IMG/VR virus record: IMGVR_UViG_3300005613_000296
Span: 1-30,263 of that record
Source of the DNA: a virus
Reading direction: 5' to 3' (one strand)
DNA length: 30,263 nt
A program made the translations under genes and the position numbers. Below are positions 3,001 to 30,263 of this stretch, piece by piece; the first letter of the stretch is position 1, and each line of letters starts with the position of its first letter. The notes beneath the pieces were generated by a model. That model was not told the origin of the DNA. It did not search any database and was given only the letters and a program-made list of their open reading frames with translations.

Positions 3001-4092
3001 AACCCTTATATAAAACTTATATGAGGTATTGGCTAAAAGCGGCAACTCCACATTAAAGTTAAACGCCCCAGTATTATTTGTGCCAAAGGTGAATATCTGC
3101 GAAGTCTGAACTTGGTTAGAAGTAAATGGGTCATTCGTAGCGGCTTCAGCATCTGAAATCATTACGAAATCAAGGCTGTACGATGTTGGTTGGGCTTGCC
3201 CGCTAATTTGGAATTTGTAATCCCCCGCAACCGCTGGTGTGAATGTAGATGTTGCAGGATTGTATTGAGATGAAGGGTCTTGTATTTCCGTTCCAAAAGA
3301 AAGTTGACTCCAACTCGGTTGGAATAGCGGAGTGTTAGGTCCGTAATTAACCGCAGTACCGTTAGTCGCTCCTGAAACATCTATCATTTTAGCCGATGTA
3401 ACTTCGGCATCAGATAATATACCACCGTTACGCCCCAACATCAAATAGACATCGTTTATGTCGTTGTCTAAGAAAGTCGAAGAATAGCGATAACCGTTTT
3501 CCTCAATGATACCCTTAACGATTGTAGATAGTCGCATATAAGGCATAAAATCAGCCTCGTAAACTGGGTCGCCTGAAGACAACGCCGCAAAGCTACCATC
3601 GCCATTCAATAATCCTCTGCGGTCTACAAGACCAAAACGAATATCGGAATCACCACTCCAACTTGCGGCTATTTCGCTTATCGTATAAGGTACATCCGTT
3701 ACGCTTGGTAAATTAAGCGCATCTATCTTCTTCGCTTCTAAAGTTTTTGCCAATGAAGGTGCGGCTGAAGCAACTAAAATTTCATATTGCTTTGGCTCGT
3801 CATTCTCAATGATGCAATCAATGAGTTCTAAATACCCCGCGAAGATTTGTTCCGAATCTACAAATAATTGTGCGGGCGTTCTTACATAAGCATTGAATCC
3901 ACCATCTACATTTACATCGTAGTAGTGTTTGAAGTATTGGTTGTTTCTATCGCTTGCGGGTACGGTAAACGTCTTTGAAATTGGCGCATATATCTTGCCA
4001 ATATCGCGTACGTTATTTACGCTCAATTCAAGTTCAACTGATTCGTCTTGGAATAGGTCTAAAACAATGCCGCCAGTTTCTACTCTTACCAT
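1..4092 (-). CDS. Tail hub/fibre fusion protein, 3' end outside window
   Basis: The reading frame from the ATG at 4092 stays open to base 1, giving at least 1364 codons with no stop, so the C-terminus is outside the window. The first ~750 residues look like the hub or tail-tip proteins of Bacteroidota siphophages. A Cys-rich patch near residues 710-730 (ENCCNFYGYTWNGK) is a motif I recall from such proteins. From about residue 860 the protein becomes fibre-like: three 11-residue WV repeats, three copies of a D/NLDGRY motif (near residues 924, 1071 and 1156), a Gly/Ser stretch, and six 10-residue repeats (residues 1212-1271). I infer that it anchors at the tail tip and reaches toward the host surface. 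Its ATG overlaps the stop of the upstream tail gene (ATGGTAA). Tail role is fairly sure; the exact subunit is not. Confidence 0.75.
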   Translation of the reverse strand, partial: MVRVETGGIVLDLFQDESVELELSVNNVRDIGKIYAPISKTFTVPASDRNNQYFKHYYDVNVDGGFNAYVRTPAQLFVDSEQIFAGYLELIDCIIENDEPKQYEILVASAAPSLAKTLEAKKIDALNLPSVTDVPYTISEIAASWSGDSDIRFGLVDRRGLLNGDGSFAALSSGDPVYEADFMPYMRLSTIVKGIIEENGYRYSSTFLDNDINDVYLMLGRNGGILSDAEVTSAKMIDVSGATNGTAVNYGPNTPLFQPSWSQLSFGTEIQDPSSQYNPATSTFTPAVAGDYKFQISGQAQPTSYSLDFVMISDAEAATNDPFTSNQVQTSQIFTFGTNNTGAFNFNVELPLLANTSYKFYIRVRTATTASIPITNSQLTIVDVPLNPAGATLDFTSLLPDVTQKQFIAEVARLYNLVFVPDRYDDKLIHIQPYDDWIAAGSLFNLTEYVDIAKPISVKPTTSIQSRSLAFNMAEGEDELSQKYLKQYGTTHSSVEISDTGNEFAEGETKIESGFINTFIVRDSTSLIQFPIIADENFESVDIGLRLAFWNGTSPSPTWYFESTLTNAQSVFSPFPQLQPYNGYENPTFNLGFAPPAVASGINIPTDNLFTDYWENYIGNIYDSDSRLVELEAHIPASVLNTLELNDSVIYKNQGYYIQRFTYDTLTERAKIELLKAVRTNPVICNLTPSPTNIIDFRGVVNFVDADGNITQDATENCCNFYGYTWNGKNGKCYLKFDRPPATSKPVTRPTRPDPKPIAGDPTQSKPLVSIYNPITKKYEYVLPSDLEAGGNLQEVTDAGATTTNNIVVNGLTATTDPIDAQGDLRAQSNLRFDAYAPLSGHNLLIVATDGTVFARDEDYYTTEGWVTSQGYATQTWVNQQGFATQVWVIGQGYVDENLSSLSFNVADGVLTASLSGGTQTTVDLDGRYLQSVSLNDLTDVDAASNKNDGAVMQWSSVLNRFVLSNTLDLRIEGSDLLADNSPTAGQVYQYNGTTFQWATVTSGGIAKLNDIGDVSVPSPNTNDVLTWNGSTWVASASGGGSADGVVNGATFVGGLLSLQRSLGLPDVTVNLDGRYLRDFTEVDPKGVASIAFSGTNTKTLTITLRDSTTVQASFTDLQGGGGSVADGVVNGATFNTSNGELTLSRTESLPDVVVDLDGRYSTYSGFSVKGDLGSNDFIGSGQVLTFSGGAGITTQSNATPNQIDIWIADNSITEAMLIDGAVTTSKINDLAVTEGKIASNAVTTNKVNDLSITNAKIADDTISEPKLDIHNSPTDGYVLQHTVANGMEWVEPIRESRNTNPAQSPFLFTHSGFTQNTTTSNTARAGNLAKASGVFTVASAGSGNIKGNINFPHGARASGLVKV
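280..459 (-). repeat. Six tandem 30-bp (10-residue) fibre repeats
   Basis: Inside the hub/fibre gene, six consecutive 10-residue units follow a pattern like AVTTSKINDL, AVTEGKIASN, AVTTNKVNDL, SITNAKIADD, with none missing a residue. Such units are known from phage tail fibres, where they build repetitive trimeric shafts. They are coding repeats, not a CRISPR array. Confidence 0.85.
1399..1497 (-). repeat. Three tandem 33-bp (11-residue) WV repeats
   Basis: Three 11-residue units, each starting with Trp-Val and carrying a QGY or QGF core (WVTSQGYATQT, WVNQQGFATQV, WVIGQGYVDEN), sit where the hub part gives way to the fibre part of the large tail gene. They probably form a short linker or shaft. 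Confidence 0.8.
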
Positions 4093-5225: not shown

Positions 5226-5764
5226 TATTTGTATTCTTTATTTAGCTTGTCAATCGTAAAGCGCAAGAAGTCTTCAACGTCTAACGAATAAGCCTCTATA
5301 ATTTCTTGAGGTAAGTTTTTGAACTTACGTTCGAATGGGTCGGTTAAAAAGTTCGTAGCCTCAATACCTTTGCGCTTAATCTTGCGGTTAATCAAATATG
5401 CTAAAGAGTTTATTCTAGATTCGGTTGCCTTAATGAATTGACCATTGGAGGCATCGCGAACCCTTAACGGCTTTTGCTTAATCCATTTGCGAATAGCATT
5501 AGGAGGCACGCCTTTACCTTTTTTACGCCCTTTGTCAACCCACTCGCCGTACTCCTCCATCATTATGTCGGCACTAAAACTATTAGCAGACGTGTTTACG
5601 TTGCCTCTAAGCGAGTTTCTTAGATTTCCAGTATTGTTTATCCGCTTATAGTATATCTTGCCGTTAGAACGCCTTGCTTTGCGTTTCGCGCCTATACCAA
5701 TCTTTGCAAGACGAACTACGTCGTCCACGAAGGTTTGTAATGCCTCGTTTACTTTTTCTTGCAT
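5225..5764 (-). CDS. HK97 gp10-like neck/tail completion protein
   Basis: A 179-residue basic protein. The segment EEYGEWVDKGRKKGKGVPPN followed by an IRKWIKQK stretch (about residues 69-97) matches the core of HK97 gp10-type proteins, which sit at the head-tail joint or help finish the tail. The C-terminus carries FLTDPFERKF, also typical of the phage versions. It overlaps its neighbours by one base on each side (TAATG or ATG/stop sharing). The neighbours, a terminator-like protein upstream and tail genes downstream, fit this role. Confidence 0.6.
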   Translation of the reverse strand: MQEKVNEALQTFVDDVVRLAKIGIGAKRKARRSNGKIYYKRINNTGNLRNSLRGNVNTSANSFSADIMMEEYGEWVDKGRKKGKGVPPNAIRKWIKQKPLRVRDASNGQFIKATESRINSLAYLINRKIKRKGIEATNFLTDPFERKFKNLPQEIIEAYSLDVEDFLRFTIDKLNKEYK

Positions 5765-6228
5765 CAGCAGATATTTGCTTCGTTAGGAACTAACACGGTA
5801 AAGTCTAAAGACCAACCCGCTAATAAGTTTGTGTAGCTATCGCGAATAGGTTGTGCGGTTGGGTCGCCAAACACCTGAAACAAATCATCATACGCACTAC
5901 CACGTCTAAACTGGCTAACGATGTTGTTTAAGAAGTTCAATGTTTCATTCAATACGTCTTGTTCATTGTCTTGCTTAAAGAATGGGTCTAGTTCATCGCG
6001 AATGTCTTTGTTGTTGATGTCAACTACATTCAAGCAAATAAGCGTAAAGTCAATAGACGTTGTCTTAGCACCTAACGTTGCGTTTGTGGGTACGATATGC
6101 AAAAGCGGGAATATAGTTTGCTTGTTCAAATCTACTTCGCTTATATCGCCTTCAGTTACTACATTGATGTAACCATCAGCGATTGCTATATCTCTTATCT
6201 TTTCTGTTATGTGGTAATAACCTTTCAT
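5764..6228 (-). CDS. Probable tail terminator/head-tail connector
   Basis: A 154-residue soluble protein located directly after the tail chaperone and before the gp10-like gene. It opens with a helix (MKGYYHITEKIRDIA), continues with beta strands and an FPLLHIVPTNA stretch, and has a strongly acidic middle. This layout is what I expect of tail terminator or connector proteins in Bacteroidota siphophages. Its ATG overlaps the stop of the -1 frame of the chaperone by four bases, which supports that frame as the true upstream coding end. Function is inferred from position and general look. Confidence 0.45.
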   Translation of the reverse strand: MKGYYHITEKIRDIAIADGYINVVTEGDISEVDLNKQTIFPLLHIVPTNATLGAKTTSIDFTLICLNVVDINNKDIRDELDPFFKQDNEQDVLNETLNFLNNIVSQFRRGSAYDDLFQVFGDPTAQPIRDSYTNLLAGWSLDFTVLVPNEANIC

Positions 6229-6970
6229 CGTCTTGCTTGCTTAGTTTCCATCTCTATTACTTTGTCGCGGTGATTCGTATATTCCAATGCGGTTAGGAAT
6301 TGAGTAATGGGTAGTCGTGTAACTTCATCAAGTACCAAAACATTTCCGCCCGCCAAGTTGAAGATGGCAGAATACCAACCCCAACGCTCGGCAAAGATGC
6401 TTCTGGCATCAAACCCGCGTTCATCTCCACCTCCTGCAAATGTTTTAGGATAGCGTTTGATAACTCGCTTGCGATAGTCCAAAAAAAAACCAATGCTCCG
6501 ACCGCTACACTTGCGGGTGCATCTTGTAACATCCCCGCATATTTATCGCTCCCTTCGTATGGCTCAATCTCATACCAACCTTTGCCAGTTTTAACAATAG
6601 GTCGATACAATACCGACATCGCTTTGTGCATATTAGACCAATCGCCCATATACGACTCAGCATCTATATATTCGCCCGCTGAGATCTCTTCTAGGTTAGG
6701 TACAAATCCCCATTCAATGTTGTTGTATTCGAATGTAGTCTTCAGCGTAGGCTTCTCGTTTAGTACCTTCGACAAGTCAACTGATAACTCATCTAATTGC
6801 TTCTTAGCTACTCTTTTTTGTTCTGATACGCTAAGCCCTACAAAGATGCGTAAAGCCGCCTCTACGGCATCTCGTTCGCTATCTAAGTTGGCCACCATAT
6901 ATTGAGCCAACTGGCGAATGGTGATATCGTCTAGCGATTCGGGTAATGTTATTGTCTTTTGTTCTTTCAT
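6225..6970 (-). CDS. Tail assembly chaperone, -1 frameshift product
   Basis: A predicted 248-residue fusion. The ribosome reads 163 codons from the ATG at 6970, slips back one base on the U9 run at 6481-6489, and reads 85 more codons in the -1 frame. The shared part has FEYNNIEWGFVPNLEE and GEYIDAESYMG, typical of Bacteroidota phage tail chaperones. The shifted part has WGWYSAIFNLAGG, which I also recall from this family, and ends in an ATGA overlap with the next gene. The shifted frame has no ATG of its own near the junction. Tail chaperones G/GT of many siphophages are made by such a shift and guide the tape measure and tube proteins. A one-base sequencing error or fixed deletion in the homopolymer, or transcriptional slippage, would look the same. 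Confidence 0.65.
6293..6970 (-). CDS. Tail assembly chaperone, unshifted product
   Basis: Without slippage the frame continues 62 codons past the U9 run and stops at 6293, giving 225 residues. These last 62 residues do not resemble anything I recognise and lie out of frame with the family-like C-terminus, so they may be a tolerated read-on. The product would act as the short chaperone form. A 64-bp gap separates its stop from the next start, unlike the tight joints elsewhere in this operon. Confidence 0.6.
   Translation of the reverse strand: MKEQKTITLPESLDDITIRQLAQYMVANLDSERDAVEAALRIFVGLSVSEQKRVAKKQLDELSVDLSKVLNEKPTLKTTFEYNNIEWGFVPNLEEISAGEYIDAESYMGDWSNMHKAMSVLYRPIVKTGKGWYEIEPYEGSDKYAGMLQDAPASVAVGALVFFWTIASELSNAILKHLQEVEMNAGLMPEASLPSVGVGILPSSTWRAEMFWYLMKLHDYPLLNS
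6481..6489 (-). other. U9 slippery site for -1 frameshift
   Basis: On the coding strand the reading is GTT TTT TTT TGG. It contains the canonical heptamer U UUU UUU (X XXY YYZ) in the right phase for a -1 slip. After the slip the next codons read TTG GAC TAT, entering the frame that ends at 6225. Nine consecutive T residues could also cause slippage by RNA polymerase. Confidence 0.65.
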
Positions 6971-9910: not shown

Positions 9911-10031
9911 TGTCGGTAAGTATTGAATCGAATATCTTATTGTCTTCTACCTTAATTATGATGCCTTGTGAGCCAATAGGTAAGTCTTTCTTTAGTATTT
10001 CAATCTTGAAGCCTTCGTATATTAGGATCAT
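9900..10031 (-). CDS. Small protein of unknown function (43 aa)
   Basis: A 43-residue frame, MILIYEGFKIEILKKDL at its start, not recognised. Its ATG overlaps the glycosyltransferase stop by four bases (ATGA) and its end overlaps the methyltransferase start by 11 bases. It thus fills an otherwise empty 117-bp gap, and this tight fit is the main support. Residues suggest a small beta-rich domain (PIGSQGIIIKVEDNKIF). Confidence 0.55.
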   Translation of the reverse strand: MILIYEGFKIEILKKDLPIGSQGIIIKVEDNKIFDSILTDNEH

Positions 10032-10693
10032 AGTGCTTTATCTTTTTTGTTACCACCGCCTGCAACAACGCTTTGTGCTTTAGTTGCCAAAATAGGAACG
10101 TGAATTATATCGTTGAAGTTCCAACTAGCTAACTTGTTAATTAGTCTATTGTCGCTACAAGTGAATTCATCCCATTCTATGTAGTATTTCTTATTAAACT
10201 TATAGTGAGGAAACGCGAAGCATCTGCCTCCGATTGTACCTATCTCGGCTTGCTGATGATTCGTTAGGTTGTTAATTGCTTTGGGGGTCGGTAGCACTTT
10301 GCTACCAAACGCCCCATCAAACAAAAGTACTTTATCATCCTTCATATACGATGCGAGTTGTTCTATTGCATCATCTGAAGCTAACATATCATCATCATCT
10401 AAATACATAATGTAGCCGCTATCTACCATCTTGCTAAGTGTGTTTAGGTATAGATTGTAGGGTGCGTGTTTACAAGTATGTCCTCTGTCTTGGTATGTTT
10501 TATTATTATCTCTAATTGTCGGGCAATTATTGATAACGCATACATCTACGTTCTCTTCGAATCCGCAAGTGCCTTCTGAATGTAGCCATATCTTTATATT
10601 GGGATAGGTTTGATTCCATATAGACTGCAAGCAATCGTGTAGGTAGTTAGGTCTGTTGGATGTTCTTACTAGGATGTTTACTTGTGGGTTCAT
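10028..10693 (-). CDS. GT2-like (GT-A) glycosyltransferase
   Basis: A 221-residue protein opening with NILVRTSNRPNYLHDCLQSI and QTYPNIKIWL, the nucleotide-sugar-binding start of family-2-like enzymes. The metal-binding DxD motif appears as YLDDDDML near residues 97-104. The C-terminal third has WDEFTCSDNRL, a plausible acceptor and base region. It probably transfers a sugar to a phage or host component, possibly modified DNA or the cell surface; substrate unknown. Overlaps on both sides (ATGA) place it in the same operon as the exonuclease and methyltransferase. Confidence 0.7.
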   Translation of the reverse strand: MNPQVNILVRTSNRPNYLHDCLQSIWNQTYPNIKIWLHSEGTCGFEENVDVCVINNCPTIRDNNKTYQDRGHTCKHAPYNLYLNTLSKMVDSGYIMYLDDDDMLASDDAIEQLASYMKDDKVLLFDGAFGSKVLPTPKAINNLTNHQQAEIGTIGGRCFAFPHYKFNKKYYIEWDEFTCSDNRLINKLASWNFNDIIHVPILATKAQSVVAGGGNKKDKAL

Positions 10694-12611: not shown

Positions 12612-12889
12612 TGGGTGAAAAGTTTAATGTTAGACTTACAAGCGCACGGTACGCTGAATTTATGCCGAAACGTTCTAGCGTGAATCTCGCTTATCTTACG
12701 TCTTTGGGTGTGGGTTATTTTATCGAAGTCGGCTTTAAGGTTATTATCAACCCATTCTTTTTCTTCTTTAGTCAGCGGCTCAGGCGGTAGCCCTTTCCAT
12801 TCAATCTTTTTGGTCGCGGCGGTTTTTCGCTTCGCGGTAGTCTTTGACCTTCTCGGCTTTCGTGGTTTTTTGGATTTGTTGTCTTGCAT
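12572..12889 (-). CDS. Basic hypothetical protein (105 aa)
   Basis: Not assigned. Residues 1-28 are strongly Lys/Arg-rich. A helical part follows (LTKEEKEWVDNNL), and the C-terminal half contains FRHKFSVPCACKSNIKLFTQWITEL, with two cysteines. Similar short proteins with a late CxC occur in Bacteroidota phages beside the sigma-like gene. The first 89 bases overlap the end of the sigma-like gene in another frame, and there is no later ATG, so the long overlap seems real. Confidence 0.55.
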   Translation of the reverse strand: MQDNKSKKPRKPRRSKTTAKRKTAATKKIEWKGLPPEPLTKEEKEWVDNNLKADFDKITHTQRRKISEIHARTFRHKFSVPCACKSNIKLFTQWITELLKLSSAQ

Positions 12890-13385
12890 TTTTAATTGTG
12901 TTATAAATAGACATTGTTGATATTCCAGTTTCTTTTGCTAGTTGTCTTAGCGACTTGTCCGACATCCCGTATTCCCTTAGAAGTTGAGCATCGTACCAAT
13001 GAAGGTCTGCTTCTTCTACTTCTTTGAGTAACTCCGATTGTTTTTCGTAGTATTCTTCTTCGGCTAACACCGATTCATTTGGGTCGTATTCTAACGCTAT
13101 GGAATGTTTCAGGTCTTCGATTGGGGTGAATAACTTGTCGTGGCGAACCTTTTGACGTTTGTAATCTAAGAACAACGTAAACAATATACGATAGCAGAAG
13201 TAGGTATTGATTTCATCCTTGTATGTTATCCGCTCAAGGCTACCTTCTTTGCGCTCGATGTCCATCAACTTTATAAACATCAACTGGACTAAATCTCCCG
13301 ATAGTTCTTCGTTCTTGCATATCGACATTGCCATTGCGTAGAACTCATCCCACCGCTTGCTTACGTTATTAACCGTTACATTCAT
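12801..13385 (-). CDS. Sigma-70-like factor
   Basis: A 194-residue protein with a region-2-like helical N-terminus (WDEFYAMAMSICKNEELSGDLVQLMFIKLMD) and a Tyr/Phe-rich stretch (YFCYRILFTLFLDYKR) as in sigma region 2. A C-terminal helix-turn-helix (residues about 150-175, SLRQLAKETGISTMSIYNTI) resembles region 4. Such factors in Bacteroidota phages are thought to redirect host RNA polymerase; this is by analogy. Its start overlaps the DnaA-like gene by 17 bases. It might recognise one of the repeated control motifs in this window, but there is no direct evidence. Confidence 0.65.
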   Translation of the reverse strand: MNVTVNNVSKRWDEFYAMAMSICKNEELSGDLVQLMFIKLMDIERKEGSLERITYKDEINTYFCYRILFTLFLDYKRQKVRHDKLFTPIEDLKHSIALEYDPNESVLAEEEYYEKQSELLKEVEEADLHWYDAQLLREYGMSDKSLRQLAKETGISTMSIYNTIKNARQQIQKTTKAEKVKDYREAKNRRDQKD

Positions 13386-22251: not shown

Positions 22252-22383
22252 TTAACTTCCGCAGTTCTCGCACTCTTCGCCTAACTCACAAGTCAAATCC
22301 CTTTGCGGTTGTTCTTTTTCTTCTAGTTCTTTTGTCCAATTCTTAAAGCTATCGCTTTCTTCAAAGTCGTGTGTTACTGTCAT
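22252..22383 (-). CDS. Small Cys-containing protein (43 aa)
   Basis: The ATG at 22383 overlaps the glycosyltransferase stop (ATGA). It is very acidic and ends TCELGEECENCGS with three cysteines, possibly a metal-binding tip. Not recognised. It fills an otherwise empty 140-base gap before the receptor-binding protein. Confidence 0.55.
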   Translation of the reverse strand: MTVTHDFEESDSFKNWTKELEEKEQPQRDLTCELGEECENCGS

Positions 22384-23351
22384 CCAAAAAAGAATTTTTC
22401 TCTGATTTTATTTACATTATTTATTTCAAATTGTTGCACGTCTAAGTACAACCTCTCTCCCATTTCCTTTGCTTTTTCTTTTGTCATCCCCTCAATCGCT
22501 TCGCGCCATTCACGTTCGTTGCTACACAAAATACCGTTAACACCGTTCTTAATTAGATTCGTGTATGGGTGAATGTTGCTACCGATAAAAGCGCACTTCT
22601 TGAATCCTGCTTCTAAGATCTTCAACTCCGACTTCATTTTGTTAAACTCAGTCGATTTAAGCGGCGCAATACTAACGTCTACATTATCATATAGCTTGGC
22701 GTAATTAAACACGTCTAACGGCTCTAAAATAGTCGTAGCACCTAATTGAGTTTTATAGTCTTGAACATCGGCAACAACGAGTTCTTTCCCTTCAGCCTTG
22801 AAGTTGTAGCCTCCTAGTTCTTCAACATCGCGAATATGACTTGCGCCTGCTATATATCCAAATCGAACCGAATCGCTTTCTTTTCTTCGATACTGCCATT
22901 GCGAATCGGAAGCATCTATTGCATTCGGTATGACAACCGAACGAGCGTTTTTATTCAACTTGGAAATTTTTTTAGATAGTTTCTTATGCGTAACCGTTAC
23001 GAAATCACTATAAATGATACTATCAATGATGTGTTGGCGTTTGTTTTGCCCTTCAAACACCTCAATCATTGGATGCCAACTATCTAAAGACCAATGATCA
23101 TCTTGGTCTATTACAATAAAGATGCCTTGCCTATGTAATTCATCTCTTAATGCTTGGTGTCCAAACTTAGGAACGAATCCCCTAGAAATAACCACCGCAC
23201 GACAATCTCGCAATTCTCTATCGGTTAGGTCTGACAAATTTTCAAAGAACTTAACATCATATCCCTTCTCTTGCAAGTTCTTAAAAGGCACATATAGCCT
23301 ATGGTATGAAACGCCTTTAACGTTCTCCTCGTTTAAGAGTACTCCTATCAT
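22380..23351 (-). CDS. GT-B (GT4-like) glycosyltransferase
   Basis: A 323-residue protein. The N-terminal half lacks the usual GT4 GG loop but has VSYHRLYVPFKNL and IVIDQDDHW. The C-terminal half carries KMKSELKILEAG, FIGSNIHPYTNLIKNGVNG, matching the sugar-nucleotide-binding domain and EX7E-like motif of retaining GT4 enzymes. It lies between the head adaptor and the receptor-binding protein. It could decorate the virion or alter a host surface receptor. A second, GT-A enzyme is at 10028-10693. Confidence 0.65.
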   Translation of the reverse strand: MIGVLLNEENVKGVSYHRLYVPFKNLQEKGYDVKFFENLSDLTDRELRDCRAVVISRGFVPKFGHQALRDELHRQGIFIVIDQDDHWSLDSWHPMIEVFEGQNKRQHIIDSIIYSDFVTVTHKKLSKKISKLNKNARSVVIPNAIDASDSQWQYRRKESDSVRFGYIAGASHIRDVEELGGYNFKAEGKELVVADVQDYKTQLGATTILEPLDVFNYAKLYDNVDVSIAPLKSTEFNKMKSELKILEAGFKKCAFIGSNIHPYTNLIKNGVNGILCSNEREWREAIEGMTKEKAKEMGERLYLDVQQFEINNVNKIREKFFFG

Positions 23352-29407: not shown

Positions 29408-29992
29408 TTATTTAGAAAGTAATGAAACAAGCGCATCAATAAGGTCGGCTTCGGTATGATTAGCCGACATCTCAACCTTCTCGGCAAAATACCCTTCGAT
29501 GCTAAAGCCTAAAACCTCACCAGTTTTGATGTAGTTATTCCAAACCTCATCATTCTCAACTTTCACGCTACCCATCCAAGTGCCTACTGGCATCTCCATA
29601 TTGTACAATGCGCTTTTATCTTTTGCGCTATCTTCGACAATCCAACTTTCAGCCAAATACAAACCTTCAAGCGGAATTGCGTGTTCTAAAGTACTTCGAG
29701 ATTGCTTAGACTTCTTCAAGAATAGTTCGCTCGCACGTCTTACCGTTTCTTTGCTGAAAAAGATTTGGTATTCTTCTTGCGTTTCTTCGTTGAATCGCAC
29801 AATCGGCTTTTCAGGTATAAGCAAAGCACCCATAAGTAACCGCTTTTCTTCATCTACGGTCTTGAGTTCGTACCGTGCTTGCTTTGAAAGTGTAACGAAA
29901 TTTTCTTCAATCGCTGGATTGCGTACAATAGAGATTGCATCAATTCCACCTTCTTCTTCAAATTCGTTGATTATTAGTTCGATTAAATTCAT
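29408..29992 (-). CDS. XkdF-like prohead protease
   Basis: A 194-residue serine protease of the XkdF family. HAIPLEGLYLAESWIVED contains the catalytic His, then PVGTWMGSVKVENDEVWN and GEVLGFSIEGYF with the catalytic Ser. It should cut scaffold or capsid during maturation. Its ATG overlaps the stop of the preceding gene (TAATG), and capsid genes follow. Confidence 0.85.
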   Translation of the reverse strand: MNLIELIINEFEEEGGIDAISIVRNPAIEENFVTLSKQARYELKTVDEEKRLLMGALLIPEKPIVRFNEETQEEYQIFFSKETVRRASELFLKKSKQSRSTLEHAIPLEGLYLAESWIVEDSAKDKSALYNMEMPVGTWMGSVKVENDEVWNNYIKTGEVLGFSIEGYFAEKVEMSANHTEADLIDALVSLLSK

Positions 29993-30263
29993 TATCCAAA
30001 TGTTGATTGACCAACTACCTTTCGGTTCAGTTGGTTTGCATTATTTATTTGTTGAGTTGTTACGTATGCTTGAACTGGTTGCTGATTTTGGTTGTTTATA
30101 GCACCTTCCAATTGGTTAAAACCGCCTTGTAACGTGTTAAAGTTCACCGCTGGTATTTGTGGCGCGCCTCCTCCGCTTGGAATTGATACCGATGAACCAC
30201 CGCCGCCTGAACTAGAGCCGCCGAATCCGTTAGGTATCTTAGTACTTGCTATTCTTTTAACTT
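29992..30263 (-). CDS. Probable tail tape measure protein, C-terminal end only
   Basis: A frame open from the right edge to the TAA at 29992-29994, 89 codons visible; the start is outside the window. It has a Gly/Ser-rich stretch (GFGGSSSGGGGSSVSIPSGG) and ends PVQAYVTTQQINNANQLNRK followed by VVGQSTFG. This kind of ending is typical of tape measure proteins in Bacteroidota siphophages. No membrane segments are visible in the fragment. Another large structural protein cannot be excluded. Confidence 0.5.
   Translation of the reverse strand, partial: VKRIASTKIPNGFGGSSSGGGGSSVSIPSGGGAPQIPAVNFNTLQGGFNQLEGAINNQNQQPVQAYVTTQQINNANQLNRKVVGQSTFG

Follow-up and report, generated by a model that had tools for sequence, protein, structure and literature searches.

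A T run conserved between the two frames of a putative tail chaperone gene in a large phage clade, with a possible role in transcriptional slippage

We analysed a virus record of 30,263 bases over its full length (hereafter the window) and found that a frame-0 ORF and a -1-frame ORF of its minus strand meet at nine T's (6489-6481). Sequence comparison with relatives shows that the split between the two frames is conserved, that the relation is always -1, that the -1 frame is under selection, and that a run of at least nine T's is kept independently of its codon phase. We read it as a two-product structural gene, most likely that of the tail assembly chaperone, in a large clade related to Nonlabens phage P12024. 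We see an even chance that this large and old clade of phages, probably infecting Bacteroidota, sets the ratio of the short to the long form of a tail chaperone by slippage of RNA polymerase on the T9 run.

The two-frame gene and its relatives

The features of the window to which we refer below are the following:

5764..6228, minus strand: gene after the -1-frame ORF, with an ATGA overlap (from the ORF list)
6225..6482, minus strand: -1-frame C-terminal part, 85 aa and stop, LDYRKR...WGWY..., which would be reached via U9 to U10 or via a -1 ribosomal slip
6293..6481, minus strand: frame-0 continuation past the run, 62 aa and stop, leading to the 225-aa unshifted product; its length differs widely among relatives
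6481..6489, minus strand: T9 slip run, GTT TTT TTT TGG, with T TTT TTT in phase; at least nine T's in 186 of 187 contexts
6482..6970, minus strand: N-terminal part, 163 aa, common to the short and the fused product, up to ...VFF; phrog_32199; AlphaFold pLDDT 94.8; conserved in relatives
29992..30261, minus strand: probable C-terminal end of the tape-measure protein, cut by the record end; weak match to the last positions of phrog_32985

The frame-0 stop at 6293, the T run, the -1 ORF and the ATGA link to the next gene had been located in an initial annotation of this DNA, and all were found to be correct when the window sequence was re-read. The nine A's of the plus strand at 6481-6489 correspond to T9 on the coding minus strand, with the frame GTT TTT TTT TGG. 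Frame 0 extends from the ATG at 6970 to a stop ending at 6293 (minus strand, 225 aa). The -1 frame extends from 6482 to a stop ending at 6225 (85 aa); it begins with TTG GAC TAT CGC..., gives the peptide LDYRKRVIK...WGWYSAIFNLAGG..., and its stop codon shares an ATGA with the start codon of the next gene (6228-5764). The predicted fusion has 163 + 85 = 248 aa. In 55 of 84 relatives, the start of the next ORF is at -4 or -1 counted from where the -1 ORF ends.

A tblastn search with the -1-frame peptide matched 16 viral contigs; in every one of them the N part reads in frame 0 and the C part in frame -1, and the junction carries T9 or T10. Further relatives were collected with profiles of the C part (A1) and of the N part (A2), and with two more scans directed at divergent subfamilies. 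The N-part profile gave at least 596 matches by tblastn against IMG/VR, and 80 of them were retained. A search for close relatives with the N part of the window itself gave no match; the N-part profile did find relatives. The scan of sequenced-genome contigs produced only a likely chance match, in Streptomyces. The analysed set comprises 262 loci with the site, which represent 187 distinct 200-base contexts and include 84 representatives under 75% identity. The split is identical, and always -1, in all 187 contexts: none of them (262 loci) has a continuous frame. The initial annotation had placed a family-like C-terminus in the -1 frame and had proposed a comparison of the T run across homologous phages. 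The C part lies in frame -1 throughout, and the comparison revealed no run length joining the frames among the relatives examined.

Two of the relatives, Nonlabens phages P12024L and P12024S, have been isolated and sequenced, and both have T9 at the same place. In each genome the annotation splits the gene into a pair of hypothetical proteins (gp40 and gp41 in P12024L, gp38 and gp39 in P12024S). PHROGs v4 also files the N part (phrog_32199) and the C part (phrog_38404) as separate families of unknown function. These are gp40 and gp41 of P12024L, with the fusion unrecognised; phrog_38404 matches 34 of the 84 relatives. As hosts are known only for the Nonlabens phages, we infer from them that the host of the window virus is probably a member of Bacteroidota.

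To assess selection, we counted differences by codon position in 56 pairs. The N part gave 728:398:2286, the stretch of the -1 frame past the frame-0 stop 132:84:394, and the overlap 411:295:508. Judged from these counts, selection acts on the -1 frame, and the overlap seems constrained from both frames. L050 is the only relative with a TAA one codon past the shift in the -1 frame (about 3445-3460). Its C part is otherwise intact, with WGSY in the place of WGWY; decay, an error or an unusual route are possible origins of this stop.

Homopolymers are error-prone, and the two parts might truly be in one frame if a one-base sequencing or assembly error, as considered in the initial annotation, or a phase-variable run (replication slippage) were at work. 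However, the 187 contexts come from many metagenomes and from two isolates, the direction of the split never differs, no context has both parts in one frame, and the overlap seems to be constrained in both frames. The presence of T9 in P12024L and P12024S implies that a one-base homopolymer error in the window contig is not the explanation. We thus give this reading almost no credence; at the level of sequence comparison the split is real, and sequencing error is ruled out as its cause. It is also very improbable that the C part is translated by itself, from a start of its own and without any fusion, which is how gp41 of P12024L was annotated, from an internal start. In none of the 84 representatives does the C part have an ATG among its first 16 codons, and 32 of them have no ATG anywhere in it. 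The open -1 frame 5' of the C part holds an ATG in only three of the 84. Given this lack of an early ATG and the rarity of an upstream one, a separate ATG start is unlikely. Moreover, the similarity between C parts starts at the slip codon.

The T run and the slipping machine

The run is a T9 in 176 of the 187 contexts, a T10 in nine, a T12 in one and a T8 in one (L256). In other words, an uninterrupted run of at least nine T's is conserved in 186 contexts, in any codon phase, and in 83 of the 84 representatives under 75% identity. The run lies at the junction of both frames, and the role of shift site that it had been assigned at the outset is supported. Most runs have the phase xTT TTT TTT Txx, 12 T9 contexts have TTT TTT TTT followed by G or C, and L100 and L227 have a third phase, GGT TTT TTT TTG. 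On a tree of 116 rows, built without the slip residues, the phase changes at least five times and the length of at least nine is lost once. T9 is found even in the most divergent subfamily (L152 to L168), where the N-part scores are 15-28 bits. The trade-off between extension of the run on its 5' and on its 3' side is supportive of slippage, but not decisive because it is based on about five events.

The only site with fewer than nine T's, the T8 of L256 (GGT TTT TTT TCT), has a sister with T10, L257 (TTT TTT TTT TCT). The base just before the run is G or C in 69 of 71 representatives, and the wobble base at -2 before the run is G in 54 of the 71, with nearby wobble bases mostly A or T. The bases flanking the run thus look as if they were under selection. 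Six loci (L111, L112, L118, L119, L130 and L133) have another stretch of nine or ten T's a short way 5' of the start of the putative chaperone gene; it is possibly an intrinsic terminator of the preceding unit.

The initial annotation had read the site as a U9 -1 frameshift at a heptamer and had held transcriptional slippage to be an equal alternative. Under the usual -1 programmed ribosomal frameshifting, the tRNA-Phe in the P site and that in the A site would both move back by one base on T TTT TTT; the same fusion would result, with no need for slippage of the polymerase. The in-phase T TTT TTT is present in all 187 contexts. In E. coli, U_UU.U_UU.U counts as an efficient heptamer (PMC4066793), and the known G/GT genes use ribosomal frameshifting, often of low efficiency and without stimulators (PMC5009743). 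As T TTT TTT is found everywhere, the comparison must use positions that the ribosome does not need. Ribosomal slippage requires seven bases, yet nine are kept in every phase. The eighth T is informative in the usual phase: a T-to-C change there yields a Phe codon, TTC, in frame 0 and a Leu codon, CTG or CTA, in frame -1. This change is silent in both frames and would leave a T TTT TTC heptamer. The most efficient heptamers in E. coli include H_HH.U_UU.Y, with U_UU.U_UU.C in the efficient class; as a tetramer U_UU.C exceeds U_UU.U, and U_UU.U_UU.C is employed by IS elements (PMC4066793). These E. coli data may be poorly transferable to the hosts of the phages studied here. The T-to-C change was observed in 0 of 65 lineages, whereas TTC makes up 34% of the Phe codons followed by T (P about 1e-12 assuming independent lineages, a value that is too small since they are not independent). 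For the first and the ninth T, conservation may be due in part to amino-acid constraint (V/L/I before the run, L/F after it).

Stimulators of ribosomal frameshifting, i.e., a 3' structure or an SD-like sequence, are common although not obligatory. There is no stable RNA structure 3' of the run (mean z of -0.08, versus -0.29 to 0.09 in control stretches), and an SD-like stimulator is nearly absent, with AGGAG or GGAGG before the run in three of the 84 representatives. In the other ORFs of these viruses, T runs of at least nine are depleted about 19-fold (1 observed versus 18.9 expected), and A runs of this length number 7 versus 54 expected, where the expected counts were obtained by shuffling synonymous codons. 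Baranov et al. found that runs of A or T are avoided from nine bases in many bacterial genomes, and regarded a 9A or 9T run whose length is conserved among homologs as very likely purposeful slippage (PMC1088944). The +1 frame, which is entered by loss of one base, closes within 3 codons in 83% of the lineages versus 35% of control codons, an early closure that may be partly due to amino-acid constraint. The window is an exception, with its +1 stop at 11 codons. This exception, the T8 of L256 and the -1 stop of L050 count against slippage.

Transcriptional slippage is favoured because the stretch of nine or more T's stays unbroken whatever its phase, including at the site where the ribosome would tolerate a T-to-C change. 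The -1 relation and the in-phase T TTT TTT of the initial annotation were retained throughout, but this conservation speaks against the ribosomal heptamer as the shift mechanism, and the two machines no longer appear as equal alternatives. On these comparative data, we consider that slippage from U9 to U10 during transcription is probably preferable to ribosomal slippage, and we hold the ribosomal reading to be doubtful. Both may also occur at the same site. We found no description of slippage in a tail chaperone in a literature search that had most subscription journals outside its range.

Gene order and putative function

The gene order in relatives starts with the terminase large subunit, small genes, the two-frame gene and four tail genes. 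It continues with a tape-measure-like ORF (545-723 aa), a protease, a scaffold, a major capsid and a portal gene, where the scaffold and the major capsid were named by position and likeness to the window's genes. The two-frame gene is thus upstream of the tape-measure-like ORF, with four genes between them. In L266, this ORF matches TMP_N with an E of 8.6e-4, which is below the Pfam curated cut-off. The window is a permuted piece of the same gene plan. Its ORF at 29992..30261 precedes the protease gene, like the tape-measure-like ORF in L266, L268 and L269, and is probably the C-terminus of the tape-measure protein. Both ends of the window record (1 and 30261) seemingly lie inside tail genes: a large tail gene is truncated at one of them and the probable tape-measure end at the other. 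This seems to be the layout of a circular genome that is permuted and lacks a piece.

Among tailed phages, G/GT frameshifting is a classic case of ribosomal recoding, and a tail chaperone had been proposed for the two-frame gene in the initial annotation. The predicted fold of its N part is confident (AlphaFold pLDDT 94.8), and PDB searches with the models of the N and C parts gave no usable match. In a viral library, the N part matches uncharacterised phage proteins and a P12024S protein. Among the 84 members, Pfam TAC_7 (PF10109) weakly matches two (best E 0.03) and phrog_166 'tail protein' weakly matches nine (best 3.6e-4). Gene order, the logic of two products and these weak profile matches make a tail assembly chaperone plausible, and it is our best guess from the sequences, a likely one, even if the structure searches and a position that is not directly before the tape-measure gene do not add to it. 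The lack of a PDB fold match, the four genes between it and the tape-measure-like gene, the vicinity of the large terminase gene and the scarcity of TAC_7 matches would suit a two-frame gene that is real but encodes another tail or connector protein in two lengths. We find this unlikely given the two-product logic, the weak phrog_166 matches, and the apparent place of the gene as the first of the tail block, on the upstream side of the tape-measure-like ORF.

A viral-library match in Flavobacterium phage 6H (L271), gp10 (10927-10352, minus strand), was set aside as ambiguous: it has a T TTT TTC near its end, but its -1 frame stops one codon later. This protein is a weak structural relative of the N part, encoded six genes ahead of the gene annotated as tape measure. 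Past the -1 stop lies another -1-frame ORF. Elsewhere on the minus strand of the window, 12801-13385 weakly matches an RNA polymerase sigma factor family (phrog_1740, E 0.0014), and its product may control late genes. Two other ORFs (10028-10693 and 22380-23351) resemble glycosyltransferases by eye.

Proposed mechanism and known systems

In the mechanism that we propose, unshifted mRNA would give the 225-aa product. At the T9 run, RNA polymerase would slip on the all-rU:dA hybrid and add one U (U9 to U10); the loss of two U would also reach the -1 frame. A fraction of the transcripts would then give the 248-aa fusion ...VFF-LDYRKR...WGWY..., and the proportion of the two transcripts would determine how much short chaperone is made per long one, a task that falls to ribosomal frameshifting for gpG and gpGT of lambda. 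In this scheme we infer that the polymerase is what slips, that the protein is a chaperone, and how the product ratio is set. If this is true, a G/GT-type gene relies on polymerase slippage instead of ribosomal frameshifting. A different machine may then have achieved the same fixed ratio of two chaperones, in a family that counts at least 596 matches by tblastn in IMG/VR. Two PHROG families of 'unknown function' are joined into one gene, the fusion being missed by annotation. P12024L and P12024S, isolated phages that share this T9, make a direct test of the slippage reading feasible.

The two-frame gene resembles G/GT of phage lambda (PMC5009743) in being one gene, apparently of the tail block, that would give a short product and a minor -1-frame extension. 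In lambda, -1 frameshifting is ribosomal and takes place at a heptamer, whereas here the T9 run is kept in any phase. Lambda G/T is directly before the tape-measure gene, whereas here four genes intervene, and no sequence homology to lambda G/GT was detected. In mxiE and spa13 of Shigella (PMC5009743), transcript slippage leads to an extended product, as proposed here, and the genes are tied to a length-controlled secretion machine. These are bacterial secretion genes for which slippage was shown by experiment, whereas ours are phage genes with comparative evidence. The dnaX gene of Thermus thermophilus (PMC1088944) shares a nine-base homopolymer and, under our proposal, two products per gene in a set ratio, but its run is A9 and slippage shortens the product, whereas slippage on the T run would extend it. 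Finally, IS elements with conserved 9A or 9T runs (PMC1088944) are similar in that run length is kept among homologs and two overlapping ORFs are fused; they encode transposases and have mostly A runs, whereas the two-frame phage gene has a T run.
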